This document shows, one piece after another, positions 5,603-59,684 of a stretch of DNA of 64,000 nucleotides (positions are counted from its first letter, which is position 1; each line of letters opens with the position of its first letter). The DNA is from Panorpa germanica (Eukaryota > Arthropoda > Insecta > Mecoptera > Panorpidae): assembly GCA_963678705.1 (NCBI GenBank), contig OY783203.1, positions 41,974,347-42,038,346 of the forward strand, in the 5' to 3' direction. Below the pieces are notes generated by a model. That model made no database searches. It was given only the letters and a program-made list of their open reading frames with translations, and was not told the origin of the DNA. The position numbers and the translations under genes were made by a program.

Positions 5603-5678
5603 ATGAAAAACTTCTTACCTCGCGAAATAGTAATGATGGTTTTTCTGTGGGGTAGTGTTTTAGCGGGCAGCCTCGGAG
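5603..5678 (+). CDS. First coding exon: signal peptide of a small membrane or secreted protein
   Basis: The ATG at 5603 (context CTCACATGA) opens a frame reading MKNFLPREIVMMVFLWG and then SVLAGSLG. That is a charged N-region, a hydrophobic core and small residues suited to signal peptidase. It is followed by a near-perfect donor, GGAG|GTAAGT, at 5678/5679. One base (G) is left over, so the next exon must supply two bases. The exon at 59446 does so and gives Ala followed by LDEKDPPR. Reading through the donor instead adds about 26 unremarkable residues before a stop at 5756. Identity is unknown; the signal-peptide and splice calls come directly from the sequence. A TTG-initiated upstream extension of the frame is open but has no reason to be used. 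Confidence 0.65.
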
Positions 5679-6199
5679 GTAAGTCAACAATTATCCATGT
5701 TAGCATGCTAGTTAGTCGCTTTATGAAAAATGGAAAATTTTTACAACTTGAAAATTAATTTTATTTTCAACTTTAGAATTCGGTCTTTAAATTTTTATAC
5801 TAATGATTGATATTATTGAAAACGATTCTAAAGTTGTAGCATTTCAAAAATATTTCAAAACATCGGTGCAGACAATCGTGCCCGAGAGTCATATTTTTCT
5901 TGTATATCGAATACACTTTAGTCTACATGAAAATGAAAGTAATAAAGTATATGCATAAGTAAAGTAATATGAAATATGTCATTTAATGATTGCATGCCAG
6001 TATTAGTTCGTATTTTTCGACTATTCGAATGTATGTAGACTAAATTTGTGTATACTTTCCTTCGGTAGTAATATAGTAATATTCGGAGTAATATGTATTA
6101 TTTAATATTTTGTTCCTTTTGTAATCGAATAAATTTAAAACTAAATAAGTGTATGAGGTATAATATAAGTACACTAGAGTTAGCGACGACTGTCTTTTG

Positions 6200-6500
6200 T
6201 GTGTGAATTGAGTTTCATTTCAAATTTTAATTCCATTTTTTAAATTGAAACATTTAACTCGTTCCATATTTATTTTACATATAACAACAAATAATTTTTT
6301 CATATAAGCTGACTAAAAAAATATATAAATTTCAATTTGTTCATTATTTGACCAACTTTTTTTCAAAATTTGGGATATTTTTTTTCGATTTGTAAATTAG
6401 GTAGCATAGTTAGAGTTAGTATTTCAACTTTGTAGCCAAATTTTTACCCTTGGCAAAAATCGCTCCCGTGCCCCCAAATAATATTTTTGAATTTGTAGTA
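6200..6500 (+). repeat. Dispersed AT-rich repeat, copy 1 of 2
   Basis: Shares ordered words with 43840-44060: TCAAATTTTAATT, AAATTGAAA, TTTTTCATATA, GCTGACTA or GACTGACTA, and GCAAAAA...CCCGTGC...CAAATAA. It is non-coding and I cannot assign a class. Confidence 0.5.
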
Positions 6501-7125
6501 CAGTACGAGTACAATGGCGTACCGGGATTAATGGGAGGTTTTAAGGTTAAATAGGTTATTCACTTAGTATCTTTTATTATACTTCATATAATATATCTTC
6601 GAAAAAAGATGTTATACATATTACATACATATATCTATATTTAAATTATAAAAAATTGTTTGTTTGTGAAAATTTTCCATGTTCTATCTAAGCTACATAT
6701 GAATAATTTTAATTATGTAATGCATAAGCAAATGTAAATAATTATAGTTGTATTCTAATTAATATAATGTCAATATCAAAAATGTATTTGTTTATTAATA
6801 ACTTTATTATACAATAATAGAGTTGTTAGAAAATGTCAGAGAGAAAGAGAGAATAAAGTGAAAGACATAAGGAAAGAAAGAGATAGAGAGAATAGAAAAT
6901 GAACACTTTCATGAAATTTAATATGGTGATACAGGTGATAGATACTACTGTAATTACCATAATGAAATCAAAATAATTACCATAAATAAATAAACATATC
7001 AAATTTTAATGTTTCAAATTAGTTTAATGAATGTTTATTTTGATTAAAAACTGATTTAATTTGTAAATAGGATATTTTAATAAACTATACCAAGTAAAAC
7101 AAAACCAAAGGCTTGCATATAAAGT
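6501..7125. other. AT-rich stretch with a purine run
   Basis: Positions 6838-6900 are a GA-rich low-complexity run (GAGAGAAAGAGAGAATAAAG). Nothing else recognised. Confidence 0.5.
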
Positions 7126-7126
7126 C

Positions 7127-7255
7127 TTAGGCCCTCCGCACACGAGTCGACTGTGCGTAACAATAGCATAACCGGGGATTTTATTGTGTCGTATTTGTAT
7201 GTATATATGTATTTAAATACTTTTGAATAGTATTTGTGCACATCTCTGCTCATGA
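7127..7255. repeat. hAT MITE right end plus a second repeat fragment
   Basis: Positions 7204-7248 (TATTTAAATACTTTTGAATA, then TTTGTGCACATCTCTG) match the right arm of the intact hAT MITE at 62706-62880. The left arm is absent. Just before it, TTAGGCCCTCCGCACACGAG (from about 7128) matches TTAGGCCGTCTGCACACGGG at about 58270, which points to another dispersed element. Confidence 0.55.
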
Positions 7256-8167
7256 TGTCACCATCAAAAGCATACATGCAACCAAGCTTGGCCCTAAAAC
7301 CGAGGAGCTGAAAACGTACTCCAAACCAGTTTAGTTTCGTTCGTGCCGTGTGTTTTCTATCACTCGTATACATGATCGTTCTCTCACTAACAACACAGTT
7401 CCATTCTCATTCGGTTCGGGCAGATTCGGGGCTAAAGTTTGCAATCAGTCGCCTCAAGTACAACTGCAGTGGGATTCAATACATTTCACTCTTAATAGAT
7501 GCGTACTGTTGAAAAATATGCTAAAGATGAGGGTTAAGGGTTCCCTCATCCCTAATACTCAAGTTTAAGATTTGACCTATACATGATGAAAAGAAAAATT
7601 TCTGCCTGTCCAAAATGCAGAACACGATGCCTCAGTTGGGATTGCTATTATAGTACTGACAAAATGTCAATGAAGATGCACATTATGTTAAATCTTTCTA
7701 CACGAAATATTAGAATAACTGTATAAAAGTTTTACACAAAATTATTTTTTTCAACTAATTTGTTAATTTGAGTTTTACATTTCCTACATAAAGCCCCCCC
7801 AAAAATTTCATTAAGTTCAGCTTCCTGAAAGTTTACTTTTTTGTACTTTTTTATATGCAAATTTAATTTTAACTTTATATAAAAATACATTTTCTCTTAA
7901 TGCAAATAGCGCAATTAAAAATATCCATTTAATTAATTCATTGAAATACAAATATATACGGGTATAATCTGTAAATCCTCTGTACGAGTTGTATGTATGT
8001 ATTCGTATATTTATTTACATAAAAAAAAGAAGTCACTATAGTTTACGAACTGATAGAAACTACTCGCATATTCACAATATTGTTATGAAAGTTAGAACTT
8101 GTAACCAAGTAAACTCGTAGTTCACCAAGATTTTGGGTTAAAAATGTTATTTTTGTACTACTGAAAA
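7256..8167. other. Stretch without recognised features
   Basis: A 72-codon plus-strand frame at 7350-7568 is protein-like in places but has no start context, splice sites or family resemblance. The rest is AT-rich. Confidence 0.5.
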
Positions 8168-8422
8168 CATCCATAAATTATGTAACACAAATTTTGTGAT
8201 TTTTCAAACCATCCACCTCGTTCACGTCACATCTTGTCACACATGGGTGGACTACCCCCCCTGTTGTACCGTCACATATTTGGAAAAATGTATATTTTAT
8301 TGTGTTTTTTTTGGTCTTGTTTTAGAAACTGAATTTAAAATTAAATGCAACGTCAAAAAACTTGCGACTCTCTTTGTGGACTCCCTCCTCCCCTCTTTGT
8401 ATGTAATGTAATTAATGGATGG
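8168..8422. mobile_element. MITE with CCATCCATAA / TTAATGGATGG ends
   Basis: The left end CATCCATAAATTATGTAACA and the right end TGTAATGTAATTAATGGATG are terminal inverted repeats. The interior has the family's C-rich stretch, GTCACATCTTGTCACACAT and TATTTGGAAAAATG. A 71-codon plus frame here is a product of the element's composition. Confidence 0.7.
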
Positions 8423-9869
8423 CCCCTAATATGTATTTAATTGTAATATTAAAAGAGCAAATCATTTTAACTCTTATTAAAAACAATATTTGCGTAAAGT
8501 ATTATTTGTCTGTACTTTTATTTATTAGCATCTCAGATTTTTACAATCTATCCCATAGGATATTTATCAATATTTCAACTTCTATGCTGGACACCTTGTA
8601 CAGTAGTACATAGAATTGTTTCTGTGTGTTTCTATAAAAACATTTCACAGCTAATGCATTTATTATATGATGTTAAAGAACGTTAATAAACAAAAACACA
8701 AAGAAGTATATCTTTGCCATTATTTAAAAACCTTTTCTTATTATTGACATATATTTTACAGGTTACTGTTTACTGTTATTATTTACTTTTTATTCTTTAA
8801 TGCTTACGTGCGTGCCAGCTCTCTCTGTGTTCAGATCTTTATGCTCCGAGCTTGGATCACAATTCACTTCTAATTATTTGTATGACATAAAACACTTGAA
8901 TTTAAACCATTTCTAGTTTTTGTCTCTGTTTAGAATAGCACATTTGATTTTTTTATGCGCGGAAATAAATATATAGAATTAATGTATTTTTAAATCGCAA
9001 ATTCGAAAATCCAATAGTACGGGACAAAAAGCATCATACTATGAATTATTACTTCGATTACCTTTTACATACTTTCAGGCATACTTTCAAAGAAATATAT
9101 AGTAGATAGATAGAATTGTTTATTGTAAAAAGAAATAACAGTAAGGGCCCCTTTTTTGGAGATTGGTCCGATGCGACCGCATCCTTTGTTTGTACCTGGT
9201 CCGGTATTGTGTATTGACAACATCTCACATAGATACGTGAACTATTAAATAGACAACCCTTGAATGTGTGTAACAGCACAAGAACTATTTATTATATTTA
9301 TATAGATAGAAACTTTATATTAGATCGTACGATAAAACATTGCCGAACGGTCGAATTTTGGACTTATAGATCTAGACTAAAACAATCTAGAAGTAATTAA
9401 TTTGCATAAGTAATTTTAAGTAATGCCTATTTCAAATTCTAGTAAACATTACAAATGACTTATATTTTTTATACCCAGATAATATTAAAGTCCCCGTACA
9501 GTCATTAAAACGACGAAGATTCGTTTGCAGTATTTTTTTTTGAATGCATTAAGTTTTAGCGTTGATGATAAATAGAGCCCGTTCCAGTTGCTCAGCCCTG
9601 ATATACAAGATTTTGTTATGACGTACTGTTTTACAGAGAATAAAAAGTGGCTAAGCTAATAAAATTCGGATATAACTTTTTTTTTGGTAAGAAGTAACAT
9701 AAAAGTCTTATATGTTTAATTTAACAACTTTAGAAAAAATATAATTATGAAGTAAATTTATATCTAACATTATACGGATTCTTGTTTCTTAAAAAGTTTA
9801 CATTTTCTGACGATCGTACGAAGTTATTTCACCGTAATATCAGAAACTGATTCTATCAATATCAAGGTA
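8423..9869. other. AT-rich stretch without recognised features
   Basis: Short frames at 8419-8613 (plus) and 9058-9279 (minus) show no family resemblance or splice context. No repeat recognised. Confidence 0.5.
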
Positions 9870-10045
9870 GAAAATTGTCTTGCAGTGCAGTTTTACAGTT
9901 CTTTGCTTGTAAAACTAGCTAATTCAAGGAGCAACAAGCTAATTCTAAGGATCATTATCTACTTCTTACATATAAATTGTTTTGAAGTGCAGTTTCACAT
10001 TTGCTACGTTACTATAAGCTAAATAAAGTGTAACGCAATTTCATA
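9870..10045. repeat. Dispersed repeat with GTGCAGTTTTACAG words, copy 1 of 3
   Basis: Contains TTGCAGTGCAGTTTTACAG, AACTAGCTAATT, AGCAACAAGCTAATT and AAGTGTAACGCAATT. The same words, in the same or inverted order, occur at 17380-17530 and 30470-30590. GTGCAGTTTTACAG and GTGCAGTTTCACAT recur within the copy. Non-coding, class unknown. Confidence 0.5.
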
Positions 10046-10047
10046 TA

Positions 10048-10265
10048 GTGACGACATAGTTGACAAAAGCATTGATGCTTGATGCTACACTTCTGTGTCT
10101 TCGGATTCAATCGCCGGACCAGAGTTATATTTTTTGGGTTTGGTTCTTATCAAATTTTATACATGCATTATTATACATATATGTATGTATTTTATGAGGC
10201 TACGACACCATAAACACTACGTAGTAGAAAGTTGTCGGTGATAGGACTTAGCATCGGAAATTAAA
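10048..10265 (+). repeat. tRNA-derived SINE
   Basis: Plus-strand copy: head GACGACATAGTTGAC, B box CGGATTCAATCGCCGGAC (diverged), body TTATCAAATTTTATAC, ACGACACCATAAACACTACG, and tail GACTTAGCATCGGAAAT. Divergence in both promoter boxes argues that it is old. Confidence 0.85.
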
Positions 10266-10824
10266 TATATCGGAAAAATATATAATACAACGTAAAAAAC
10301 TGTTACTCAGATAATGATAAATACCCAAAGTATTATATAAGTCAGACATAAGAAATGTAGCAGCGTTGGTCGTAGAAAGCCAAATGTAGTAAACCAATAC
10401 GAGTGTACAGAGAAGGCGCCAATTTATTTCTGATGGACCTAGACATCATACCGCTGGCCCTGGTATAACTTTGAAGATGACATTAATTTGAAAACTTTAA
10501 AAATATTTTAATGTCCAGCTCGGATGATACTTGGCAAGAGTTTTTCTTTTGTTTTATGTAAAATATAATATAAATACTCGAGTTGGAAAAGGAAATTGAA
10601 TTCAGATTACGAAACTGAGTGGAATTGGTAAAAAATATACAAAGGACAACAACAATGCCAACAATGTTACTCAAATACATCTAATTCCCAATGAAAGATT
10701 CAATGAAATAACTAAGGTCTTTTTATAACTTCTAATTATCTAAGTTTAAATTTATTCATATAATTTGAAAACATACTTGCAATGTTATGCGTATTTTTAA
10801 TTACATTCAAATGAAAAAATGTTG
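10266..10824. other. AT-rich stretch without recognised features
   Basis: Nothing recognised on either strand. Confidence 0.5.
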
Positions 10825-10829
10825 TTAAT

Positions 10830-11111
10830 TGGCGTTGGATTTCCCAATGGGCTTAAGGAACACTATGGTCTATGGAGACTTACGAAAAAGTAAATTATAA
10901 ACTTTCTACGAAAGACCTTGGCCTACTTATGTATTTGGAATATGCCTATGGTCCATGAACACTAGAACGTGGCTCTGAATATTACTGCAAGAAACACCGT
11001 GGAAGGAGAACGATAGTGAGAACCGTGAGTGAGTGAGTGAGCAGAATCGCACACTTGTTGATGTCTTCAAAGGCTGGTGGAGAATGGCACTCAAATTTGA
11101 AAACTAAAAAT
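10830..11111. mobile_element. Possible MITE with GGCGTTRGATTT ends
   Basis: Starts GGCGTTGGATTTC and ends AAAATCTAACGCC, an imperfect inverted repeat (about 11 of 13). The terminus GCGTTGGATTTTCCCAGTGG is found in inverse orientation at about 15499-15520, so the end sequence is dispersed. A GTGAGTGAGTGAGTGAG run lies at about 11024-11040. Confidence 0.35.
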
Positions 11112-11188
11112 CTAACGCCAAAAAATAAAACAACAATGGATTAATAAAAGTTAAATATTCTTTAACAACTTGTTCTGTGTTATTTTCT

Positions 11189-11650
11189 CTAAAGTATCAT
11201 TCCCACTCACTATTTTAATTTTGTTTTCAATTTTGTATTTAATTTAAATTGTATTTAAATTAGCTTGTATCAATTATAATTTAGAATTTTATTTGCGTTT
11301 TCTTTGTTTTTCATCTTACAAGGTCCAATATTTTTAAATTAAAAATATTAAATTCAATAAAAATGTGTTTTGTATTATAATTTTCAAAAAGTGACAATCT
11401 ATCAAAATGCAGTAGGATTTATTTTTAAAAGAAGTTCAATGTGAGTTTGTTAAAAATAAAGAAGTAAAAACAATTTCTATTACTAATTGTTAATAAAAAC
11501 AGAAATTTTAATTATTCCACATTCAATTTTGTCCAACTGTCGAACTGCTAAAATTTATGTTACTAACGACGCATGCGCACCAACTAAATTAAAACACAAA
11601 TTTGACAAAGAAATTAAATATCAAAACAGTGAGTGCGAATGAGGCTTTAA
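11189..11650. mobile_element. TTAA-flanked MITE (ATTCCCACTCACT family), copy A
   Basis: The left end has AGTATCATTCCCACTCACTA and the right end AAAACAGTGAGTGCGAATGA, inverted repeats of roughly 24 bases. It is bounded by CTAA on the left and TTAA on the right. The interior carries TTACAAGGTCCAAT, GTGACAATCT, TTCAATTTTGTCCAACTGTC and GACGCATGCGCACCAACTAA, all shared with the copies at 12294, 40061 and 52469. A TTAA target suggests mobilisation by a piggyBac-like transposase, but the termini are not diagnostic. Confidence 0.75.
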
Positions 11651-12293
11651 ATTTTTTTTTATTAATTTTAGAACATTTCTAAAGCATATTTTAGAATCAG
11701 GTATTGAACAAATTCAGTTTCCAGTATATTAATTTCATAACATATACAGTGCATTTTAATAAAATTGTTTAATAAATTAAAAAAAAAAAATCAAGATAAT
11801 GCATCTTAAAAAAAATATAACCTGGTCTTAAATTTAATACGCATTTGTCTATTAAAGGTATTTTAATATTAAAAACATTTTTGTTTTTATTCGTATTTTA
11901 TTGCATTTTGGTTTAGCATTCCTTTACTGCAGTCTGTCTGATGGTTGAATAATACAGATATACAGACTATACATTTTTTGTAATTACTTACTTATAAGTT
12001 GTGTAAGGTATATCTTCCCTTTAAATTTAATGGCAGTGCTATAACGGACAGACCTCGATAACGGATGAGTGGTTTTGTCATGACAGTTTTGTGATTTTGT
12101 CGTCTATCCTGTGATAATTTATGTAAATATATTTTAGTTCGTTGTACTTATCGAAGATTAAGTTAGGGTACGTAATATAAATAAGCTCCCACACGCAGAG
12201 ACAGACGTTGAACTTGAACTTGGTAATACTAAGTTTGCCTACTACCGATTGAAATTATTTTAAGTACAAATTTTCAGTATAATATCAATGTGA

Positions 12294-12547
12294 CAATGTG
12301 AGTTTGTCAAAAATAAAGAAGTAACTTATATAAGTAATAACTTATTGTTATTAAAACTAGCAATTATAATTATTCCACATTCAATTTTGTCCAACTGTCG
12401 AACTGTCAAAATGTATATTACTAACGACGCATGCGCACCAACTAAATTAACTCTACTCAAATTAAAACACGAATGTGACAAGGAATGCCTATTCTGAAAA
12501 CCAGAAATCTGGATTAAAATATTATTTAATGGAGGGAATGAGGATTA
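12294..12547. mobile_element. TTAA-flanked MITE family, copy B, left-truncated
   Basis: Matches the right half of copy A from CAATGTGAGTTTGTCAAAAA through GACGCATGCGCACCAACTAA to the end GGGAATGAGGATTAA. It retains an internal segment (GGAATGCCTATTCTGAAAAC) that copy A lacks and copy D has. Confidence 0.7.
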
Positions 12548-12894
12548 AGTTATTATAGAATAAAATTTATACTACAACTACAAAATGACCCTTTAATAAC
12601 ATATTTTAATAACAAAAGAAAAGTATTTACGTTTTAAAGGAACCACAAACAAAAAAGAGAAAAAAAGCAATGTAATAGTTTGAGGTCAATCACCTGAAGA
12701 AGGGGTAGGCCGATTGATAAAATGTTTTAGATAAATTACGTATTTATATATAGTTTTTCTTGACTTACAAAAGGGTCTAAACCACAAGAGATTGCTTTCA
12801 TATAAATAGACTCTTAAATATTTATGGGTAAACATGGACTCTATATAAGGGAAAAAAGAAATCGTTTTTTTAGATACTTTTCGCAACAAAACTT
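12548..12894. other. AT-rich stretch without recognised features
   Basis: A 67-codon minus frame at 12686-12889 has no recognisable similarity. Confidence 0.5.
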
Positions 12895-13260
12895 ATGTTT
12901 TTGTATGCCTTTCGGCTTTACAACCTCTATTACGTACGTTCCATGAAACATTTAAAAATTAACTTAACTATCACTAATATTATTTTAGTCCTTCATTAAG
13001 TGTCTCCTATCTTATTCCTAATTTCATCTCTCCTTCACTCACTTCCTATGTCCTTTCGCTCATCTCTTCTACGTCGCTCTCTTTAATCGGTCGTTCATTT
13101 CTTTCACCTCTTCCGTGTACCCTTCTTCCATGCGTATTCCTGATAATTATTTCCTAAATTTTTCTCTTCCTTTTTCCACTCAGTCAATCCCACACCTTCC
13201 TTCTCCTCCTTGTCCTCTTTCACACAAATTTTTATCACCATTAACTGATGATAATAAGTT
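12895..13260 (-). repeat. Non-LTR retrotransposon 3' fragment, minus strand
   Basis: TATGCCTTTCGGCTTTACAA at its left edge is the antisense of the LINE 3' terminus seen at about 38771-38790. It is followed by a long TC-rich stretch, which is antisense to the purine-rich C-terminal coding and 3' region of that LINE. The frame is decayed and I could not follow the protein. Confidence 0.6.
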
Positions 13261-14340
13261 ATTTAAACATACTCGTATATGATATTGATATACATTAATG
13301 ACATCTGTTCTTCCATTTCCTCGTAATCTCTACTTCTCCTTTTCTAAAATTTGGTCCTAACGATGTAATTTTAAACTGAAATTTTTTAAAATAAACACTT
13401 CCTTTTTTTCCTGTATTTCTAAAATACACAACACAACAATTTACATGCAGTCGTAGTTAATGTTTATTTAATCGAAACGGGCCGCTATTGATTTTATTCC
13501 ACGCACTATGCACTCCGCACGGTCCCAATACTATTTATTCGCTGCAATTCTTGAAACTCGAATATTGATTTTGTCGTTATCTAAAACTGATTATTCGGAT
13601 ATACCTCTCTAATGAATTGTCCGTTCGATATATCGTAATATACATTTTATACAGTTGGGAATATTCAATTCAATTTTTAATATCAAACTATTCTTTTATC
13701 ATCTATGTCATTATCATATATCTATATCATTAGAACAATTGTGTCGTCAATAGGTGATGTAAATAACCTAGTTTCAACGTTACTAATTTAATCATTTTTA
13801 CTGCACATATAGTTTTGTAACAATTTGACATTCAACCTTGAGACCTGGTCAACTATGGTATAGATAAGTTATTTATACATTTTGAAATTATTATATAACT
13901 TAATATAGATAAATATAATTATCTTCAAACTTTGCTGATATTTCATTTTATATATTTGTTCATATTTGTCTGCAACTTATATGAATTTTAAATGTTAGCG
14001 TTAAATATATTGTTTACGTAACAAACAAACTTTCTAAATTTAGTTAAAAGTTAACATTTTATTTTCTAATGTAATTTATAAAGTATACGTTTACCATGAA
14101 AATTCAAGTCAATTTTTGAACGTATAATTTATATTACAGAGTGTATTTAGAAAAAGAACTTCGATATTCGTGTTAAAATCTGTATAAAAGTATTTGTATT
14201 CTTATAGAGTTATACTCTGTATACAAAGTAATTTAGTAATCATTATCCCCATGCTAACAAACACAATAAAGACGGCAAAGTGTGACACAGCACAATTGAT
14301 AATCATTTTTTACTTTAATTTGTTTGTAAAGTTTGCAACA
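13261..14340. other. AT-rich stretch without recognised features
   Basis: Nothing recognised on either strand. Confidence 0.5.
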
Positions 14341-14379
14341 GCGCAGTGGTTGTACTCGTAATATCTTAATTACATGACG

Positions 14380-14535
14380 TTAGTACCTTGTGCATGGTAA
14401 CATTGTTACTTGAACCTCTGAACCACCACGCAACTCGCAACCACAAATCTTTGCGTTCGTTGATGGCTTGGAGGATGGTTGCCGTGGAGACGTATCCATG
14501 GAGTTCCAATAATTAAATATGCCTGTCATTGTCAA
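14380..14535. other. GC-richer island, possible exon, strand undecided
   Basis: On the minus strand the frame NSMDTSPRQPSSKPSTNAK, then ICGCELRGGSEVQVTMLPCT, is open from a possible acceptor (TGACAATGACAG) to a possible donor CACAAG|GTACTAAC. On the plus strand a 39-codon frame starting MVTLLEPLNHHATRNHKS is also open to TAA. Base composition stands out from its flanks. I recognise neither translation. It could equally be a fragment of a mobile element. Confidence 0.25.
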
Positions 14536-15242
14536 TCTTAAAGGTGTACGGTAACGGTAACCAAGTTTCGATGGTGGATAAATTGATAAGCTGGTATCAA
14601 TACAACAAACAAACGACAAACCTACAAATGGTTCAATGCTTCCGACTCATCTTCTTCCTCCACCTTTACCAGAGTTTCCACAGTTTCCAGAATGTAAACA
14701 AGAGACAAGTTTCAATACACTATCAATTAAAGTGAAGGGAAATTATATTAACGAGGAAAATGTTTCACGCAGATCGGATCAATTTGTAAAAACAATTTTC
14801 AAAGGATAAGGGACCAAGGGAGACCAACAACTGAATGTAAACACTGTGATTTAATACGTGTTTAACAAATACTCTCGAACAAGGAATATGAAACCGTAGG
14901 AAGAGGATAAAACGGAATGAGAAGTTAGAAACCATCATGGACGACCGACGACCGACGACCGACAACAGACGACCTAAAACTGTTAATGAATATTAATTGA
15001 CATTTGTAATTAAAAATGTAATTGATATATTTTATTGTAATTTATTTAAATTAGAGATTTATTTTATTATATCAGTATTTTCCAATTTACTTAAGTGGAT
15101 TTCTTTTTAGTTATTATGCATCCTCTAAATACAGTTACGTATTTAATGTTTATTTAATATAAAATAAATACCCTTTTACGTAAAAAATGTTATGTAATAT
15201 CTCGACCAGATATTTCACTGAGATTGCCGTTAATGTATGTTT
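14536..15242. other. Stretch with a short GACCGAC tandem repeat
   Basis: Positions about 14940-14975 are a tandem array of GACCGAC-type units. Otherwise AT-rich with nothing recognised. Confidence 0.55.
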
Positions 15243-15525
15243 GGATCCAATTGGGTCCCAATGTGGTATGCCCAGTAATCCTAATCCAATCGGGGGCCCT
15301 GTTTCTGTATCTTTCGAGCAATGATCGTGATCGAACAGATATGTTTTATATGAGTAAAATATTTTACAAACCGCTCATATAAATCAAATCTGTTCGATCA
15401 CGACCATTAATCACAAGATTCAGAAATAGGGCTCCCGATTGGAATAGGATTACTGGGCATGCCACATTGGGACCGATTGAGACCCAATAGGGACTCCACT
15501 GGGAAAATCCAACGCAAAAATTAAT
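15243..15525. repeat. Large imperfect palindrome (hairpin), about 115-base arms
   Basis: The left arm (15243-15360) contains CCCAATGTGGTATGCCCAGT, AATCCTAATCCAATCGGG and CGTGATCGAACAGAT. The right arm (about 15375-15490) contains the reverse complement of each, at roughly 85-90 percent identity by eye, separated by about 15 bases. The sequence then continues to CCACTGGGAAAATCCAACGC, an end-like sequence also found inverted at about 10831. It is probably a fold-back transposon. Transcribed, it would form a long double-stranded RNA. Confidence 0.8.
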
Positions 15526-15636
15526 AGAATAATGAACAAATATACCTAAAAAATAGTTGCTATTGCTTAAATTTAAAAATTATTTAAGAAAAATCGTTTA
15601 AGAATTTGAAGAATAGTCAAAACTAAATAATTAAAG

Positions 15637-15950
15637 TTAGGGATAAACTGATAAGTGGATAAGGGAATCGAAGGTGATGTATGTCGGAGATTTCATAACA
15701 CCACACTCAAACAGGTTTTTTTTGGCATTCGGTGCCGGCGAATCACTTGCTGAAATAAACTGAAATAATGATGGATGGGCAGAATCCCCAAGAAAATTAT
15801 TATGACTAACTAGGATTGCCTGGTTGGGACCTGACTGGAATGGCACTGTCGAGACCAGACTATGACTGCCCGGTTGGGACCATTTAGGTTATAGCTTTAC
15901 ATTCCAATGGGACAGCACTGTTGGGTACCAGTTGGGTTTACATTCTTTGA
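15637..15950. repeat. Region of TGGTTGGGACC repeats, probably part of the same element
   Basis: The words TGCCTGGTTGGGACC, TGCCCGGTTGGGACC and ATTGGGACC recur here and in the palindrome at 15243-15490. A 69-codon minus frame at 15637-15846 is open but overlaps these repeats, so I do not call it a gene. Confidence 0.45.
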
Positions 15951-16955
15951 TTTTTTCATTGCTTTTGGAATCGTAAAAATAATCAGTTCAACGAAATAAC
16001 CAATTCAGAAAATATAGCGTTTTCAATTTTTAAATGAACACAAATCGCTGAAGCATTTGCATAGCAGACAGTGGTTCAACCATGGAAAAGTACCATATTG
16101 GCTGTATCAACAAACAATCAGTTACTTTTGATCACACCTCACACTGTATTGTCCTTTAAATAAATAACAATACTACGACCATTTAAACGACAGTTAAGTG
16201 GTTTTGTGAAAGCTGTCGTCTAGATGTTGTAATTTATGTAAACATCTTACGCTGTAAGACAGTGCGTTGTACTTACATATAACGCAGATAAAATTAGTCT
16301 AAGAACAAGTTTATAATTATTTTCTCGTAGTCGTACATAAACTGCAAAAAAGGTTACATCTTTTATTTTTTGTTTTATTGTGCAAATATTTTTCTTTAAT
16401 TTTCGCCTTCCAAGCTTGTTTTTTATAAATAAAACAACTGTGTTTTTCATTGTTAGCAGTAAACTTTTCATACAAAATATTATCGTAGTAAACAGTTAGA
16501 AATTTTTGTTTACCATTCATCCACTTCAGACTAATTATTAAAGTCACTTTAAGTTAGCAATTATAATATATAGATCGTAAACCCTTTCACATTATCACCA
16601 TTAACAGTTCTGATGAGCTTTAATATATGAATTTATAGCGTGATAAACTTTCTAACCCATGTCATTTATTAAAGTTATCCAAATTCCTCACAATGAGTGG
16701 TAGACAGACGAGACTGGCACACGACGCACAACGCACATGACGCACAAAATGCTCAAACGTTAAAATGCCTTAATGCCAATATAAGATTATTAGGAAATCA
16801 TTAATGAATATACTGGTTGTAAATGACAACAGGGCCGGACAGAAACAAACTTTTTGATGAATTCGTTTCGTATACAAAATAAAACAACTGTTATAAATTA
16901 TATTAAAATTACTGTTGAAATACTTAAAAACTTATTAGAAGTTATAGATATTACA
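15951..16955. other. AT-rich stretch without recognised features
   Basis: Two overlapping minus frames of about 75 codons (16247-16547) are lysine- and asparagine-rich, as expected from composition. Nothing recognised. Confidence 0.5.
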
Positions 16956-17285: not shown

Positions 17286-17379
17286 TATAAAATAAAGTAT
17301 TAGAGGCTGTAATATTATAGTTCAATCCGAAATGAAGACTAGGTTCACTCAACAGGCAACATTATTATTAGTTTATTTG

Positions 17380-26345: not shown

Positions 26346-26348
26346 ATA

Positions 26349-43770: not shown

Positions 43771-43839
43771 AAATAAATGCATCAAACAAACTGACATATT
43801 TTTAGTTATTATGAGTATATATTAATAAATATTACATGC

Positions 43840-48832: not shown

Positions 48833-50904
48833 AAAAAAAAAACAAAAAAATTTTAAAGCACGAAAAAAATTTTAAAGAAATTTTTATTTTTTTAAAGAAT
48901 TTAAGATACAAAAATATCTAATTTATTTTGACGTATTTTCTATAATATTATAAGAAATAAGAAAACAATTTGGTATTTTTTCATGCTATGTGTTGTGTAT
49001 TTACTTTATTTAACGCATATTTCCGATGATCTGCTACTATGTTAACAGTTTTTATTTAATGGTGTTGTGGCTTCATAAATGCGGATAATAGCTTCGCATA
49101 ATAAGTTTTTATAAGTATGTGAGCATATAACTAATTTAACTTTGATTACGACACTTATAAAATATATATACCGATATATACCCGAAGACATAGCAATCTC
49201 ATAGTCTTATTTTATATTTAGTCGTATTTTAAAATTTTATAATTTTTTTAAAAGCTTTTAATTATTTATAAGGACTTCAAAGTTCATATTGTATTTCTAA
49301 GAAAGGTGTTTTTAAGAAGTTTTATAAGTATGCTAACACTATACACAAAAAGAAGATTTATGTTTCAAAAAGCAATAAAATAGGTTAATAAAAGTTGTTT
49401 ATTAGATAAAATGGTATACGTAACAGGTAGCATTTGTTATGTTAGATAAATCTTAAATATGTAACTGTGTTTATCGTGAAGTAGTAGTTTTTAATGATGA
49501 AGCTGATGGATATAATAAAGACTAGAATCTTTGACTTATTTACACTGTATACATGGAATTTGGAGAATTCTTTTATCTCACATTTTCTGCGGACCTCATA
49601 TATTATTTAGTCTAGAAAAATTCATGTAAACTGTGTTAAGTCTACACGACATAAAGTTATATAGACATACATTTATAATTTGAAATAACACGAGCTGTTA
49701 TTACACCTTGCATTATTTAAACTTAAATGTATTTGTCGAAAATTTAGTAAATATCGAAGATTTTATTGTATAAAGTATCCAGAAAGGGAAGCGCGGCGAT
49801 GTGTAAAAAATATTAGGATGTTCGAGATCATATATATTTATCAATTTTTTACTTTCAATTTTACTAATTTTTTACATCCCTTTACCACAATGACATCGAT
49901 GTACCTAACACTTTGTATTTGATATATTTAAACACTTTCATAATCATCACAACATGCTATACACAACGGTACATATACATTTCTGTATAATACGTCCATA
50001 TTTAAATAAAGCAAGAGCACTATGTTATATCATAATAATAAAAGTCATCATTTTAATAAAACAGCCAGTAGTGAAACAATACTAAATTATCTTTGTAGAT
50101 GGCACCTCGCTGCCAGAGCAGATAAACCAAAACTTTGGCACAGAAATGCAACTGTCGGAAATACAAAATTGAATAAGGGCAACCAACTGACAAACACACA
50201 ACTAGGCAGACAAAAGTTAATTTACATTCAGAACATATTCAAACTACGATTATTGTATTTTTAGTGTGAAAACATGTATTTAACTTGTATTTTTAGTGTG
50301 ACGAAATGTGAAAAATTGCAAATGGCGCCATATCTTAAACTTATTTAGTTCGCAGACCTAGTTCACTGTAACAATCTTCACATGTCTTGCAGAAAGTGCA
50401 ATTTTAAGTTCCGTTACGGCTCTTCTATATTCTATGGTATATTGTTTTAGTTTGGCTTCACCACACAAATTTATTCGGTCGCTTACCTACTTAGAACATG
50501 AGTTCAAAAAATACTACTTTTACTAAAGGAAACAAAACCACATTAATCTTGATGTCCGGAGTTTAACATAGTAGACATAGAAGTCCGCATCAGTCGACAA
50601 TGTTACCTTGTTACTACTTCCGGTATATTCACTTATTGTTGTTTGGAAACTAGAGTCCTTTCGTTCCATTAAAACTTTTATAAAACAACCTAAATGAAGT
50701 GAATTATTTTACGAGTATTACGACTACTAGACTAGAGAGAAGATAAGAGTATTTCAATTGGACTAAAACACTGAGACGATTAACCTTAAAGGGCACAAAG
50801 ACCATACCATCAGAGCACAAGTACCATTTTCTGTACATTAAACAAATAATAATTCGAAAATAATTGAATAGTATTTTTTTAATTTTTTTATTTCATAATT
50901 TTTT
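48833..50904. other. AT-rich stretch with an unrecognised 80-codon frame
   Basis: Plus frame 50022-50264 includes WHLAARADKPKLWHRNATVG and NTKLNKGNQLTNTQLGRQK after an acceptor-like TTATCTTTGTAG at about 50098. There is no donor and I recognise no family. The rest is AT-rich. Confidence 0.3.
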
Positions 50905-51020
50905 ACATAATCAATTTAACTTAATAACAATCAAATCAAATCCAGAAAATAAAGCTCTGATCTGAGGATCGAACCCGAAGACGTAGCAATCAGCGTCAAA
51001 CATCAGTGCTACCGTACATT
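50905..51020 (-). repeat. tRNA-derived SINE, tail missing
   Basis: Minus-strand copy with head (GACAATGTACGGTAGCACTG), B box (CGGGTTCGATCCTCAGATC), TTTCTGGATTTGATTTGAT, then TTGTTATTAAGTTAAATTG. Confidence 0.82.
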
Positions 51021-52468
51021 GTCTTTTTATAGTTCTTTATAACAAAATAAAGTATGGTAAAAATACCCGTATGAAATTCTAGCAGCTTTCTAATAGAAAA
51101 AAAGAATAATAAGTCATGTCCACTTTTAAAGTAAGTTCACTTCGCTGTCTGTATCCGTGAATGCAGACCTTATTATCTCCCGATAGTCTCTGTTGACTTA
51201 CGTTCCTGAGCAGTTCGGATTAACCTATAGACAAGTAAAACAAATGTCTAGGGAAATGATAAGGAAACAATTGATTTCTTGTGAGAAGGTCAAAAGAAAA
51301 TGTATTTAATGTTGGCGAAAGGAAATTACAACTGGATAGAATTGATTTCGGATGAGTAATTGTAACTAGATATAATTGATTTCATTGTCACTTTGTCTTA
51401 TAAGGTCTAAGATACCATTGATATTACGTGATACTTAAAAAACTAAAAAGCATTAGTTTAAAATATAGGGGGGAGAGTGGGGATTTTATATTTACTGAGT
51501 ACTGCCTTTGATAGTTCGTAACCAAATTCAATAAATACTTTCAGTAACTTCAAATGATTTATTAACAATAAAATATACAAGCATAAAACTGCCTTTAAAA
51601 AACCTTTTCATTTTCTTTTGTAAAATATGTTTTGAGTATGATAAGTAGAGGGTTTGATGCTTTTAAATACTGGCTCCGTTACACATTTGAATCTTGAGCA
51701 GGTCAGATCTTACATAATGGTGAGTTTCATATTTCTCGTATCATTCTTTGTAACGGATTGAAATTACAAAAAAATAAAATTCTTTGCAATGTTACGCAAA
51801 ATTTTAGAATATAAAATAAATTAAATTTATTTAATTCTTATATAAAATGTAAAGACTTATACACTTAAATAATTCTATAACCCTATAATTATATATTCTA
51901 TAACCCTGCAATTTTTTATTCTAAAGCCAAATTAAATTTCACAACGGACTGTAATTTGGCATGAAAAGTATTAGTATTGCAAAAATTTGATTGGTTAAAA
52001 CATATAATTTTGATAAAATAGGCCCCTTAAATTTTAATAACTTAGAGTTTACTTAATACTTCATCCGCCGCTGTATACATATATAATATATTATTTTGCC
52101 ACGTGAACCACGAAAATATTTACTAAACAGAATATTTACCAATAAATATGCAAATAGTACGACATTGACTTTGACTTTGAGTGTGATTAAATTTTGTTAT
52201 GAGTTTTCATTTCCGCAAACAATGGATTTATTTGTTTCAATATTTGCATATGAGTAAATATGAATAGCAAATCAGAGACCCTGGGGCATAGATATTCTCG
52301 TATACCAGACACATTTTGACAATAATAATTTAATGATATAGTTCAAAAATAATTCTCATTATATTGTATTTAAATTTAGCGGTATAAATCGTGTTTTGCC
52401 AATTCTTTGACCTATATTTTGTGAATATTTTATTATATATATTGTTATGATATTCAGGCTTACTGATA
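51021..52468. other. AT-rich stretch without recognised features
   Basis: Nothing recognised on either strand. Confidence 0.5.
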
Positions 52469-52863
52469 TTAAAGTATCATTCCCACTCACTGTTTTAATT
52501 TTGCATTTAATTTAAATTGTATAGCATATGAGAATATGTGCAATCATTCTCTGTACCATTTTTAATTCAGATTTTAATTTACCAATGTTCAATGTTTCCA
52601 AATTAAAAATATTTAATTATATTATAACCTTCAAAATGTGACAACCTGTAAAAATGCAGTATGATTAATTTTTTAATGAAGTTTGTCAGTGTGTCAAAAA
52701 TAAATAAATAAAAACAATTTCTATTACTAATTCTTATTAAAAACTGCAATTTTAATTATTTCACATTCAAGGAATGCGTATTCTGAAAACCTGAAATCTA
52801 TATTAAATAAGGATGTAAATTAATAATATATATGAAAACAGTGAGTGGGAATGAAGTGCTTAA
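52469..52863. mobile_element. TTAA-flanked MITE family, copy D, complete
   Basis: The best copy. TTAA on the left, then AGTATCATTCCCACTCACTG; on the right AAAACAGTGAGTGGGAATGA, then AGTGCTTAA. The inverted repeat is about 24 bases and a TTAA lies at each edge. The interior shares GTGACAACCTGTAAAAATGC and GTGTCAAAAATAAA with the others. Confidence 0.8.
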
Positions 52864-55800
52864 TAAGTGCCTGCGGTGGTAATAAATATAGGGGGTTTGT
52901 TTTAGCTCCCATGTGAAAGCTAATGTATCTAATAACAATTGATGTTGAGCCTATCTGATATTACCTTTCCCTATTTATCTTTTACGCGGAATCAACTAAT
53001 TAAAAGCTAGTTTTGGGGGGTTAAGTAAGGCCAGAGTTTGGGGCGAAAATATTGTTACAATTTTACTGGACAACGACGACGACTTGTGTGCACGTAGCAA
53101 CTATCCTCTTCAGCTTCTAACAGCATAGGATACACACTTGTAAGGGCGTGAAAGGGGGATGAAGGGAGTCTGGCTCTGGAACCTTCTATGACGCCAAAGG
53201 TACAAATTTGTATGTGCGAGCGAGGATTAAGGGAAGGGAGATTAGGATTCACGAACCTACTTCAGCTAATTCCAGTTATTATTTCATAACTATAATTTTT
53301 GTATGCTCAGACGCCCGCAAATTCGTAACAATATATTAACAGTAATTGCAGAAAATTTAGCCTCGTTCTTGAATATTTAAGACAGTTTTCATCCTCTTTA
53401 CCGAAATTATCAAAATAAAAATGTGAACATCTCCGTAACCCAGCTTTAAATAGTCTTTTACGGTCACGAAAAGAACAGGTGTCAAAATTTTGACTCCTGA
53501 TCGCTAAAAAAATGTGTATTCATGTTATAAGTGCAAACAAAGTGACAATCCTGTGCTAACTGTTAAACAACATTTATAAAAGAAGACATCAATCATATTT
53601 AAACGAAATATTAATGGGTAAGATTTTAAGCCGAATTTTAGTTTGTATCATCATAGCTTCTTCATCGTAAACTCCTCGTAGTGACGTGAGTTTTAGAACA
53701 ATAAAAAAATTAACTCTCAGTAACCTCATTTATCCTCATGAACTCTTATCCGCAAAACTTCTCAATAACAAGCACTCCTTATATCGTCCTTCTTCACCTC
53801 TTTCCTCAAGAGCTTGTGCTCAAGAAACCATGTCAGTAGGTGTAGACTAGTACTCATATGTAGTTAGATGCTTCCTTCAGAGTATTTTATTGATTTCTTT
53901 TGTAAGTTTTATGTTAATAATATATTTATAAATTAAAAATTTAGTTTAGTATTAAAATGTAGATTGTTTCATTATACTCGTAGTATCATGTAAATCAATA
54001 TTCATAAATCATACACAGTAATATTACATATTCGTAGTTGATATAGAAATTGCACAGTAGAAAAATTTCTGCTGTCATAGGCTCAGACATATTAATGTAT
54101 GTAGTTTATACTTAATTCCGCAAAAGTAATAGTAGCTTCTTAAATATGATGTAGCTTGCACTAGTAACTAATAACTCTAAAAATGCTTTTCTAATTCGAG
54201 AAAATAAGGTAACATTCGAGTAATAAGGTAAAGTGCTATTTGACTAAGGGTTACCAGATGTTTACTATTTGAGTAGACTGACATCCTTCATCTTTAGTTC
54301 AATATTTTAAAAATTAAAATAGTAAAGATATAAAAAGAGATATTCTGCAGAAAGGTCACCACTTGAACAATATTTATAGTTTCGCTGGAAATAATTGTTC
54401 TTTTATAAATATACAGTTGATGAAATGAAATCTCAGATTTTGTAGAAAGGTGGTAGTTTAATAATAAGTATCCTTCTCATTTGCTGAGTTTTATCGTTAA
54501 TTTAATGTATTAACCTTAAATGTAAATATCAGCTTGTAAAATAGTAACTCGTTTTGAGTAATATACTTTATTAAATAATAATTACTATTATTAATAATTA
54601 TTCAATGTTATCTATAATATAATTATAATATTAAATATTTATAATAAATTATTATGGAATCTTTGATAAAATCACTGCCAAGATTAAATAAAGATATTGT
54701 AGGCCTATGGACTACTTTTACTTGTCTACTTCTTGTTTAAAATGACCTTTTTTTTACTCTCAAAACTAATTAAATTATATCTAGTCAAAAAAATTACTTT
54801 TTTTTCGAAATCCAGCAGCTATACTAGTCAGAATGTAATAGCACTATTTCTTCAAATTAACAGCATCTGGTAACCCTAAACTGCAAACGTTACTTCTTAT
54901 TTTATAATGCTTTTAGTACTTGTATTTTTTTTTAAATATTGACTATGAGAAATTAATACTAATATTATAATTATAAATTATATTATTTAAGTTATCATAG
55001 ACAAAACTTATTTATAAATATAAAAGGAACCAGTAAAGGTACCCTTAACTTGAATATAAAAATTAACAGAATCTTAAAGAATAAGATTATGTTCCTTATC
55101 TTAAAAAAGTGTGCTGCAAAATACTCATATTCATACAACATAATTATAATTTTCCAAATAAAATATGCAGCAATGTGTGTAAGTTGGTAATAAATAATAA
55201 CAAATGCTGAGAAGCTTCAGTGTTTAAGACAATAAAATAAGACGCAGTTATTATATGATATTTACTGAAATTTGAAGTATCCAGAAACATATATAAATGT
55301 TTGAGCCTGAAAAGTACAGCGCCCCTGTGTATGTGTATGTATATCGGTAACCTAGGATTTATTTAAGCTAAATAACTTTTGAATATAATTCGTTTCATTT
55401 TTTTTATGGATTTAAGAAAAACTTCTATTACTTCTATTAATATTTAAACATTATATTTAATTTCGATATAGATCAATTTCTTTATCGATAATAACTAATA
55501 TATTTTCAAGGTTTTCAAGAGATTGTATTTACGACTTGTTTCTTAAATGAAGTCTATAATTTAGCTTCATTACTCCTATTGCCTTTGAACCGACCCTTTC
55601 ATTCCTTCATGTAATCTTTTTAAACCAATAATAAGAGGTTAGTGACCTTCGTTAAATATAATATTAAACTTAAAAGATATTCAATAATTTTACGAATTGT
55701 AATTTTAAATGTGTGATTGTGAACGCCTTGGAGTATTTTGAGACTAAAATAATAAATTAATTATGGATAGAAACAAATCTCATCTTAAATTCTAAATTAA

Positions 55801-56109
55801 ATGGAATTAATAGTAAGTGAAAGTAAGTGTTAAGTGAAACAATAAAATGAGTCAGTCATCTTCGTGTTTTTCTTAATTTGATAAATGTGTATGCAATTCG
55901 AAATTCATAATTGCAGAGTGAAAAAATATATTATGCGAGTTTTTTTGTCTATCATCTTCTTTTGTAAAGAACTGAAATAGATGCTGTAACCGCCTTCTAT
56001 TTTTAAAATTCATCTGAAAATGTAGAAAATAACTGCAAATGAATTGAATAAAATGCAAATACGAAATCTTAAAGGGAAGATGTTAATTTCACATTTAACT
56101 TCGGCTTAT
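52864..56109. other. Stretch without firm features
   Basis: 52904-52932 shares AGCTCCC.TGTGAAAG words with 3996-4024. A GC-moderate patch at 53040-53260 has a 65-codon minus frame with no recognisable family. The rest (53.3-56.1 kb) is AT-rich and empty. Confidence 0.4.
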
Positions 56110-56265
56110 TTCTGAAAAGTCGTGGCCTCATACACTGCATAACCGAAATACTCTGCATAACGAATTAATCTTTGATAACAACTAAAACGGGATTCAACTC
56201 GAACCCGAAATCGCAGCGGTCTGGAGTCAAGCAAAAATGTTGTCAGCCGACTAACCTGAGTGGAA
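56110..56265 (-). repeat. tRNA-derived SINE, degraded
   Basis: Minus-strand copy: head decayed, GACCGCTGCGATTTCGGGTT, B box remnant TTCGAGTTGAATCCCG, TTTAGTTGTTATCAAAG, ATGAGGCCACGACTTTTC. Confidence 0.7.
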
Positions 56266-56524
56266 GTTGAAGTTAATATAATATATAGAATAAATTGATT
56301 TTTAATGAGAAAAAAATTAATGAACTAATTTTGTCTATATTTATTGAAAAAGCGACCCCGGACCAATGACAAAGATTTTATTGGATTGAATAAAATTTGT
56401 GAAAAATTTACAGTGGGTAGAAAGACATTTCACAAATATATACATACTGTATAAAATGTTCAGTATATAGTCAGAAAAATTAGGAGAAAAGGGTTACAAT
56501 GGTTACAAAGTTGTTTTGTGTAGA

Positions 56525-57180
56525 AAGCATGGACATAAAGAGAACCGCTAAGAAACTTATGGAAGGAAATTCAGAAGGTGCGAGGATGACCCACCTGAAG
56601 AGATAAGTATGATGAATTAGAAGAGAATGACGGTCAATAGGAATGAAGGAATTTTAAAAGTTTATTGGGGCATGGGCTGTGGCGCCAAGATGATTAAAAT
56701 AAAATGTATGAAAAATGTATACCGAAATATATAGTTTTGCTATAAATTTACTATGGTTAAAATAGAATCTTTGAAAACTTACTCTGGGTACTATTGAATC
56801 TGTTGTACATTTATATGGGATAGAATGAAATCTTCTGGCTAATTTATGATGAATGGAACGAAATATGAAATATTTTTCGCGAGGCCGGACCATGTATTTT
56901 GACGCCCCTATCCACATGACAAAAAATATGAGAAGGTGGCACAGACAAGAAGGAATGGTAAAGTGGGAGAATGAAGGATGGCGGATATAAGAACAAAAGA
57001 AGACAATGAGGAGAAACGTTGCAAGAGAGAAGAAAGTAAATAGGTGGTAGAAGTAAGGAGAAGGCATAGGAGAAAGATTACAAGAGAACATGGAAAAGGA
57101 AGAAGAGCATTTAAAAAAATTTAAAAATGTGTAAATGAAATGTAAAATAAATATGAGGAGGTTGAAAAGCCGTAAAGCAG
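56525..57180 (+). repeat. Non-LTR retrotransposon 3' fragment, plus strand
   Basis: From about 56930 the sequence is purine-rich (GAAGGAGAAAGA-style) as in the LINE coding and 3' region. It ends TTGAAAAGCCGTAAAGCAGA and TACAATAAA, a degraded form of the 3' terminus AAGCCGAAAGGCGAACAATA. Assignment of the part before 56930 is uncertain. The 145-codon minus frame at 56654-57091 exists because of the strand's purine bias and is not a gene. Confidence 0.5.
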
Positions 57181-57786
57181 ATACAATAAAATATAATACA
57201 GGTATACAAATAAAATGTAAAAATTAAAATATTAATGACTTTTGTTTTTTAGAACTAAGGAAAATGCTTTTTCTGCTTTCATTTATAATGCTTTTATTAT
57301 TAATAGTGTTTTCTTTTCTAATAAATTGTTGCCCTTTTTCGAATTTTTGATTAAGGTTAGATTGGTTTAGTTAAATTTGTTGGTCATCATCACAAGTGGG
57401 GATATAATTATATGGAGCTCTACATAAATATAAATAGAGTCTCTCATAAACATTTATTACATATATCTACTATTTTATGTTAAAATTCATTGAAGGTTAC
57501 ATTGCAAATGCCCCCAGAATCTTGTTCTATTGGAAATAATGACAATTATTTAAACTTATCAAAGAAAAGAAAACACTATAAGACAAATGCTAATTTTATC
57601 ATATTTATGCACGTATTTTGTGTTTTATATGTGTCATTTAAAAGAATCTAACTTTATATTAGTTCCCCATAGCTTACATACACGTAGTACGGCCAGGTCA
57701 TCCAGGAAATTTGTAGTCTTAATGTTTGTATTTTATAGCAAATGTAATAGAATCTCATGTGTGTTTTTTTTCTAAATTTAATTTAG
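57181..57786. other. AT-rich intron sequence before the cassette exon
   Basis: Nothing recognised. It ends in the polypyrimidine tract TGTGTTTTTTTTCTAAATTT and TTTAG. Confidence 0.5.
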
Positions 57787-57888
57787 TCATGGAAGTCCCG
57801 ATACATATCGGACCAAAGGGGTTGAATGTCAGTGTAGTAAATTATCATCCGCCGATCACCTGACACAGAACCCCCTTCAACATCCCCA
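57787..57888 (+). CDS. Candidate 102-base cassette exon with an in-frame TGA
   Basis: A strong acceptor (T-rich tract, then ATTTAG) and donor (CCCCA|GTAAAG) bound a GC-rich 102-base segment in AT-rich DNA. Joined after exon 5603-5678 it reads V, then MEVPIHIGPKGLNVSVVN, YHPPIT, TGA at 57861-57863, HRTPFNIP, and leaves one base that joins 59446 in frame. Length and both phases therefore fit the gene, but a stop interrupts. The options are a short secreted isoform of about 50 residues, a poison exon, TGA recoding, or a sequence error. A second frame (HGSPDTYRTKGVECQCSKL, then SSADHLTQNPLQHP) is open throughout but would need different neighbouring exons. A donor six bases downstream (AAAG|GTATAT) is also usable. 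Confidence 0.45.
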
Positions 57889-58539
57889 GTAAAGGTATAT
57901 CAATTTAATTAATTTATATAATCAATTAACATATTATTTTACAACTTGTTTTACATCCAAATTTTTACTTTTTTAAACATTGTTTTCGATTAACTAACAC
58001 ACTAAATTAAATGATTGCTTGTATTTCATTTTACACATTACTGGATTGTGAATGAATTGGTTCAATATTGCTACTACAGTATTTAATAACATTTCACACT
58101 AAACATGGTTACATATATTTTACATAAATGACTATTAAAGTTGAATTAATAACTTTAACGGCGTAAGACCACAGTTTGAGGTGATCACATGTAAGATAAA
58201 GAAAGTCAATACGTTTCCTTCACTTCCAAAAGGATTTGTGGCATGATTAAAAAAAATCACCTACTTCTTAGGCCGTCTGCACACGGGTCGACTAATTGCA
58301 AACTTGTCGCGCAACAAAGTTTCCAACGAAAACGAAAAACGAGCCATGTCGAGCCGTGTTTCGTGACTCTACATAAACACGAGATTTTAAACATTTTTAC
58401 ATAAATTAAAGATATGTTTTTAATGTATCCGCTACGTATAAGACCTAGTTCGCACTTAGATTATTTCCGCACAGTTTTAGTTCCGTGTACTAACATGAGC
58501 GGAATTATGTGTATATTTATATGATTTCATAAAAGCCTA
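57889..58539. other. Last intron, first part
   Basis: TTAGGCCGTCTGCACACGGG at about 58270 matches about 7128. Otherwise AT-rich with nothing recognised. Confidence 0.45.
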
Positions 58540-58865
58540 TACACTATTGAGGAATAATTTCCTTAATAGTTTTTTTACGGGGTTTTAATGAACACTAAAA
58601 CTTACCTAGCTCACACTGCGGATAAATTCATCTCGTTTATATGCAGTCTTGATTCGATTGTATACTGTTGTATTTATATATCTTGTCATGTTAATGGATG
58701 TATAAAGAGATGAAGTGACAGATGGCATACTGCTCCAAAAAGATACGCCGGCAACAGGATATGGGTTTTGAAGAATTAATTCCGTAGTGCGTGTGTCCAC
58801 ATTCAAGTATATGTTCTACAACATTTTTTTTCCATGTAGAATTATTCCTCAGTGGGGTCTAGGTC
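58540..58865. mobile_element. MITE with CTAGACCCC...AGGAATAATTCC ends, copy 2
   Basis: Left end ACTATTGAGGAATAATTTCC, right end AATTATTCCTCAGTGGGGTC, then TAG. The interior shares ACTAAAACTTACCTAGCTCA, GATAAATTCATCTCGTT and TATATGCAG with 5015-5254. A further right-end remnant (TAATTATTCTCCAGTGCGAT, then CTAGGGG) follows at about 58895-58923, so the end is duplicated. Confidence 0.75.
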
Positions 58866-59139
58866 TAATACAGAATTCGTGTTTTTTTCTGCGCGTAATT
58901 ATTCTCCAGTGCGATCTAGGGGTAAATGTAAATAATTACGTTTAGTGGGATTTTAATATATACATATAATATCATAAAATATACATACATATATCACATA
59001 CACAAACGTAATATATCGATTATAACCTTTAAATAATGACAATAATAAATGACATTTTTTTGAAGAATTTTAAATTACCAAAATGAGCTCTCCTGAAATC
59101 AAAATCTAATAATCTTATTTAATGTAGTAAACCAATAGA

Positions 59140-59312
59140 CGACATAGTGAGCGAGAGCATTGCTGCTCTTCGCACGCTGAATGCTGTGTCTTCGGGTTCG
59201 ATCCCCTGATCAAAGTTATTTTTTCTGGATTCCGGTATCACAAAATCAGCCAATATAGGAGATCGGTATAGGACTGATAGGCATCCGAAATAGGCCGACT
59301 TTAAATTAAATT
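59140..59312 (+). repeat. tRNA-derived SINE in the last intron
   Basis: Head GACGACATAGTGAGCGAGAG, CTGAATGCTGTGTCTTCGG, B box GGGTTCGATCCCCTGATC, a jump over the body to CCGGTATCACAAAATCAGCC, and tail CATCCGAAATAGGCCGAC. It ends 133 bp before the last exon's acceptor. Confidence 0.85.
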
Positions 59313-59445
59313 AAATATTATGAGAATAGATGTAAATAAGTTATAAAATGAAATGTTTTTATAAAAATGTTTTGATATATTAATCTATATTAATTATGTT
59401 TGATAATATAATACTGATGTGTTTATTTTTCATTTTTAAATACAG

Positions 59446-59684
59446 CCCTAGATGAAAAGGATCCACCGAGACTGCCCGTAAAACCAGTAATACCGGTTGC
59501 CCCCACAGAAGAACCATCACTGCATCAGTACCGAGATAGGAAGGGGTCGAAACCCTCTTTAACCGGGGGAAGTAGCGAACAACAAATTTTATATAAGTTT
59601 TTCTTAATTGTCTTGTATATTATTGTAATTATATTAATTGTGACGTGTATCTATTGTGTACTATCATTTGACTCTGAGACGTAA
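59446..59684 (+). CDS. Terminal coding exon: proline-rich segment, one transmembrane helix, stop
   Basis: The acceptor TTTTTCATTTTTAAATACAG leads into the only open frame, which needs one base from the previous exon. It reads LDEKDPPRLPVKPVIPVAPT, EEPSLHQYRDRKGSKPSLTG, GSSEQQILYK, then a hydrophobic helix FFLIVLYIIVIILIVTCIY and a short end CVLSFDSET before TAATAG. Spliced to 5603-5678 (spare G plus CC gives Ala) it makes a 104-residue protein: signal peptide about 1-25, Pro- and charge-rich segment 27-72, helix about 77-98. With a cleaved signal peptide it would be a small type I membrane protein. Five or six residues after the helix make it nearly tail-less. Proline-rich followed by a C-terminal helix could also suit a GPI signal, though the helix is long and ends in acidic residues. 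Family not recognised. Confidence 0.7.

Follow-up and report, generated by a model that had tools for sequence, protein, structure and literature searches.

Could a protein of only 104 residues be encoded by two exons lying almost 54 kilobases (kb) apart? The question is raised by a stretch of the genome of the mecopteran Panorpa germanica (assembly GCA_963678705.1, 464 megabases (Mb) in 249 contigs; contig OY783203.1, forward-strand positions 41,974,347 to 42,038,346). This stretch, here called the window, comprises 64,000 nucleotides (nt) with a guanine + cytosine (GC) content of about 30%, and coordinates are counted from its first letter, those below 1 or above 64 kb lying in flanking DNA. 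In our view the sequence is best explained by a two-exon, plus-strand protein-coding gene that extends across 54 kb and would be joined by the splice 5678^59446, a reading to which we give a probability of about 0.58. Its parts are collected in Table 1.

When re-read from the sequence, the exon coordinates, the GTAAGT donor, the in-phase join and the 104-residue product given in a preliminary description of this locus all proved correct, and its figure of some 53.8 kb for the distance between the exons agrees with the length of the intron. The coding part of exon 1 is 76 nt long (25 codons plus one base), starts with ATG and ends in a strong donor; exon 2 has 239 nt including its stop codon. 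Neither contains an internal stop and they join in phase 1, so that the leader, proline-rich segment and single helix originally described do lie on two plausible exons in one frame. The acceptor of exon 2, previously called strong, is better termed moderate, at 4.4 bits. Here as elsewhere, the splice-site matrices, the recursive-splice reference and the rules for initiators, polyadenylation, start context and charge are general ones, not trained on this species. The observation made on the sequence is thus confirmed, while its first interpretation, as a single small-protein gene, is partly supported.

Codon usage was assessed with a table derived from 4,129 codons in 17 stretches of neighbouring genes, hand-picked by eye among long frames and including one stretch of Rad21, and was applied to both strands from -31 to 147.5 kb (178.5 kb). 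Exon 2 very probably codes for protein, its proline-rich part ranking first among 17,066 open 45-codon windows in this region; the best such window of the exon reaches 24.8 bits against 15.0 bits at the next separate place, and it tops the list of 15 segments scoring at least 15 bits. Divided at the membrane helix, the exon yields +23.2 bits for the 45 codons before the helix and -24.9 bits for the helix part; as a whole it scores -1.7 bits, a figure that may be compared with a median of -21.8 and a best of 8.8 among 760 open 78-codon windows. It is because the helix codons cancel the proline-rich part that a terminal-exon scan demanding a coding score of at least 8 omits exon 2. For exon 1 the score is -2.6 bits, where the 18,933 open windows of 25 codons in the intron region have a median of -8.0 and reach 14.5 at best. 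Hydrophobic parts escape scoring of this kind, and codon usage can therefore judge neither exon 1 nor the helix part. On searching the 104 residues against the genome, at expectation values (E) up to 10, the two exons alone were found (three candidates scored), and a DNA search of the whole 464 Mb with exon 1 returned its own locus and no second place.

Since a phase match arises one time in three by chance, and AT-rich DNA readily yields signal peptides and helices, three controls were applied: codon usage, simulation and real DNA. The simulations comprised 60 sequences of 64 kb from a fourth-order Markov model; the limits of the first-exon, terminal-exon and pair scans, like those of the signal-peptide donor scan described below, were fixed after the exons had been seen, which makes the outcomes optimistic. 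With stringent limits, equal to the observed values, an equal first exon appeared in one of the 60 simulations and an equal terminal exon in none. In real DNA, the same limits return one exon of each type on the window's plus strand, none on its minus strand and none on either strand of 200 kb of flank. At stringent limits, then, the exon pair exceeds chance expectation. Loosening the limits gives one first exon on the plus and two on the minus strand of the window, with three and three in the flanks and 0.65 per simulated 64 kb; for terminal exons the corresponding figures are three and none, six and two, and 0.17 per simulation. A looser pair scan finds 16 phase-matched pairs on the plus and three on the minus strand, where 20 simulations averaged 1.0 with a maximum of 6.

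It is from these looser figures that the opposite reading, a spurious exon 1 or else a pseudogene or chance match throughout, draws its argument: signal peptides and helices come cheaply at 30% GC, loosely defined first exons occur in simulations and on both real strands, and exon 1 carries no codon signal. We consider it clearly unlikely, given the rarity of equal exons in the stringent simulations, the absence of internal stops and a codon signal that lies in the non-hydrophobic part. The surroundings of exon 1 may also be considered. No ATG occurs in the 252 bases preceding its start, the nearest upstream one beginning at 5348; start-to-start gaps of at least the resulting 255 nt number 17 among the 1,147 in the window.

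Between the exons, from 5.7 to 59.4 kb, there is no plus-strand segment of at least 15 coding bits. A strict splice-bounded scan of the intron produced weak candidates only, seven on the plus strand and 16 on the minus strand. When tried on Rad21 (149.4-149.9 kb), however, the same scan placed three good exons at the top and missed or misplaced others; it is insensitive, and short or codon-poor exons may therefore have escaped. A longer protein is accordingly conceivable, in which both exons are real but internal exons were missed, the 104-residue form being a minor isoform or nonexistent. Both borders are in phase 1, as is typical for the genes of modular extracellular proteins, which leaves room for a phase 1-1 module between them, and weak phase 1-1 candidates exist, such as 56524-56577 (4.2 bits). 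Against this, the lack of any segment of at least 15 bits contrasts with the 18.9-41.2 bits of Rad21 segments outside the training set (a further Rad21 segment, of 114.5 bits, was within it). The best candidate exon, 45410-45466, attains the maximum of a looser splice-bounded scan at 9.9 bits, and overlies an opposite-strand frame that appears by eye to be a transposase remnant, although that frame has no Pfam match. Nor was exon 2 found to be claimed by a longer protein from upstream, a possibility raised in the preliminary description: from -31 kb up to exon 1, the sole plus-strand segment of at least 15 bits is 1007-1105 (16.8 bits, GC-rich). On balance we regard the longer protein as rather unlikely.

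One stretch within the intron, 1.6 kb before exon 2, had been proposed as an alternative route to the same protein (Table 1, single-copy stretch). Read in phase 1 it gives 25 codons and then the TGA, which is followed by C, so that this route yields 50 residues instead. Its ends are poor (acceptor -0.6, donor 1.1), and equally good pairs of sites 60-200 nt apart enclosing DNA of at least 45% GC number four on the plus and six on the minus strand. The stretch has no repeats within 264 kb and a single place in the genome, and the 50-residue product has no Pfam match at E up to 10. A splice switch, whereby skipping would give the 104-residue membrane form and inclusion a 50-residue secreted form, or 140 residues with readthrough, seems to us most improbable.

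In a scan of 179 kb, signal-peptide donor sites were found twice on the plus strand, at 5678 and 81138, and five times on the minus strand. The second of the plus-strand sites ends a signal-peptide exon at 81087-81138 (MAWCHVVWCLLLLSHTA, phase 1), and 43 kb further on lies 124057-124237, a coding-like exon with cysteines that takes phase 1 and has no Pfam match; these may form a second plus-strand gene of the same shape. The exon at 124057-124237, with 15.8 coding bits, also invites the idea that exon 1 belongs to another gene, splicing past 59446 to this phase-1 exon, with exon 2 having a different first exon. We think this very unlikely: 81087-81138 is in the right phase and nearer, and none of the signal-peptide exons found by the scan would remain for exon 2. 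The simplest arrangement is a pair of genes with separate leader exons, because 81087-81138 lies closer to 124057 and fits, and the position of this other donor upstream of a different coding-like exon was counted in favour of the two-exon gene proposed here.

The product of that two-exon gene would be a type I single-pass membrane protein. Its N-terminus has a hydrophobic core and a VLA/G pattern, which would place cleavage after residue 21. The stalk after the putative cleavage site has 55 residues, eight of them proline, and contains neither an N-glycosylation site nor a cysteine. The predicted helix occupies residues 77-100 (24 residues, two of them cysteine; Kyte-Doolittle 3.24 over 21) and supplies the one further membrane helix expected of type I. 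An AlphaFold model of the exon-2 product alone, from a single sequence, has one helix at residues 43-77 and an unstructured stalk, with a mean predicted local distance difference test score (pLDDT) of 74.9 and block values up to 97 in the helix.

The hydrophobic end can also be viewed as a glycosylphosphatidylinositol (GPI) attachment signal of the same gene, in which case the mature product would be a lipid-anchored, proline-rich peptide some 45 residues long. PMC10491789 describes such signals as having a small residue at omega+2, a spacer of 8-12 and a hydrophobic end of 15-20 residues. TGGSS and an 8-residue spacer resemble this pattern, the hydrophobic run following them; the length of that run (24 residues), its very high hydrophobicity and the polar DSET after it do not fit. 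This reading is a sub-case of a real gene, its odds lying inside those of the two-exon gene, and we allow it little probability.

Several points weigh against the two-exon gene. Phase agreement by itself has that one-in-three chance, and the loose search would neither single out the pair 5678/59446 nor prove a gene on its own. Exon 1, on which codon usage is uninformative, is the weaker of the two exons; the C at position -3 of its start codon is what we take to be a weak context, and it is overlapped by a minus-strand, signal-peptide-like first exon at 5619-5706. Type I membrane proteins tend to have positive residues on the cytosolic side. The DSET tail is acidic, with a net charge of -2 and no positive residue, which mildly disfavours that topology. 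A scan of both strands of the intron for AG/GT recursive-splice sites found none above background on the plus strand, where the best score is 3.6; the opposite strand of this DNA reaches 9.1. The best plus-strand site, 33164, lies near the midpoint of the intron and is weak (18.0 for the reference). Among fly introns longer than 40 kb, 63% have a high-confidence recursive-splice site and a further 7% a medium-confidence one, according to PMC6110457. As 30% of long fly introns lack such a site, and species may differ, its absence here lowers confidence only slightly. Lastly, no homologue of the product was found in PDB, in Pfam above cut-off or in IMG/VR.

In detail, the PDB search with the 104 residues gave three matches, with a best E of 0.63, and with the exon-2 product IMG/VR gave 49 pattern matches, of which none was confirmed as a relative. 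All the sub-threshold Pfam matches take in the helix or part of it. Membership of four families was rejected on scores below the gathering score: Cortexin (PF11057; 15.9 and 16.6 bits, gathering score 25), SPAR (PF22004; 14.0 and 14.8, gathering score 27), DUF846 (PF05832; 15.9, gathering score 22.6) and Ni_hydr_CYTB (PF01292; 12.8, gathering score 30.1). Cortexin, a small membrane protein with a single helix, is the best Pfam match and covers part of the stalk together with the helix, a match probably explained by shared hydrophobicity. SPAR, a small regulatory polypeptide likewise with a single helix, matches weakly over the helix. By description only, the product may also be likened to the annotated short coding sequences of Drosophila, such as CG34250, in being small with one helix; a membrane helix is present in 32% of these according to PMC11674832, from whose account the product differs in exceeding the 100-codon limit, with 104 codons, and in carrying a signal peptide followed by a proline-rich stalk.

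Table 1. Features of the proposed gene, in window coordinates
Feature	Coordinates	Strand	Remarks
Probable 5' untranslated leader	5379..5602	+	TCAGTT at 5377-5382, which we take to be initiator-like; upstream ATG gap
Exon 1, coding part	5603..5678	+	Signal-peptide pattern MKNFLPREIVMMVFLWGSVLAGSLG; phase 1; donor GGAG/GTAAGT
Proposed intron, without convincing internal exon	5679..59445	+	53,767 nt; codon and splice-bounded scans
Unexplained single-copy stretch	57787..57894	+	108 nt; 47% GC; weak splice-like ends; phase kept; TGA at 57861
Exon 2, terminal coding exon	59446..59684	+	Proline-rich segment and single membrane helix, ending in DSET before the TAA stop
Probable 3' untranslated region (end approximate)	59685..60155	+	AATAAA at 60124 and 60133

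A scattered repeat with a GGTTCGATCCCCGGA-like stretch, presumably resembling tRNA-derived short interspersed elements, occurs at 4760-4963, 10089-10261, 25142-25219, 47795-47848, 48750-48827 and 59174-59322; one copy stops some 120 nt short of exon 2. Within the intron, the minus strand carries a retrotransposon remnant at 39073-39537, which matches zf-RVT below the Pfam cut-off (E 0.0012); a minus-strand frame at 66857-67162 is similar to it by eye. Apart from exon 2, several of the segments scoring at least 15 bits are unexplained or resemble transposon remnants by eye. The next-best separate 45-codon window, 63096-63218, has no Pfam match and is perhaps merely GC-rich, because it scores highly on both strands; 65834-66091 on the plus strand is coding-like (17.1 bits), shows what looks by eye like an internal repeat and has no Pfam match. 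In keeping with an animal genome, the neighbours include, besides Rad21, a JmjC domain, an emp24 domain, two pieces of a BACK domain and a tRNA-binding domain whose best match is AIMP1. Neither Rfam, at gathering scores, nor a tRNA scan gave a match in the window.

Under the two-exon reading, transcription would begin near 5379, with exon 1 ending at 5678; removal of the 53.8 kb intron would join it to an exon 2 running from 59446 to about 60155. The signal peptide of the resulting protein would be removed after about residue 21, leaving a disordered proline-rich stalk of some 55 residues outside the cell or in the lumen of the endoplasmic reticulum, followed by the helix and a four-residue tail. 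As a guess, the product is perhaps a small accessory or regulatory subunit, regulating a larger membrane protein that it binds through its helix or stalk.

Proteins of this kind are ordinary; the unusual feature is the shape of the gene. In the approximately 179 kb around it, no other segment matches the coding score of exon 2. Knowledge of small membrane proteins is not by itself changed by this gene. Provided that the splice exists, the gene distributes 315 coding bases over 54 kb, an architecture with which gene finders working exon by exon may cope poorly, and the locus would both offer annotators a clear test case and add one more small membrane protein to those still uncharacterised.

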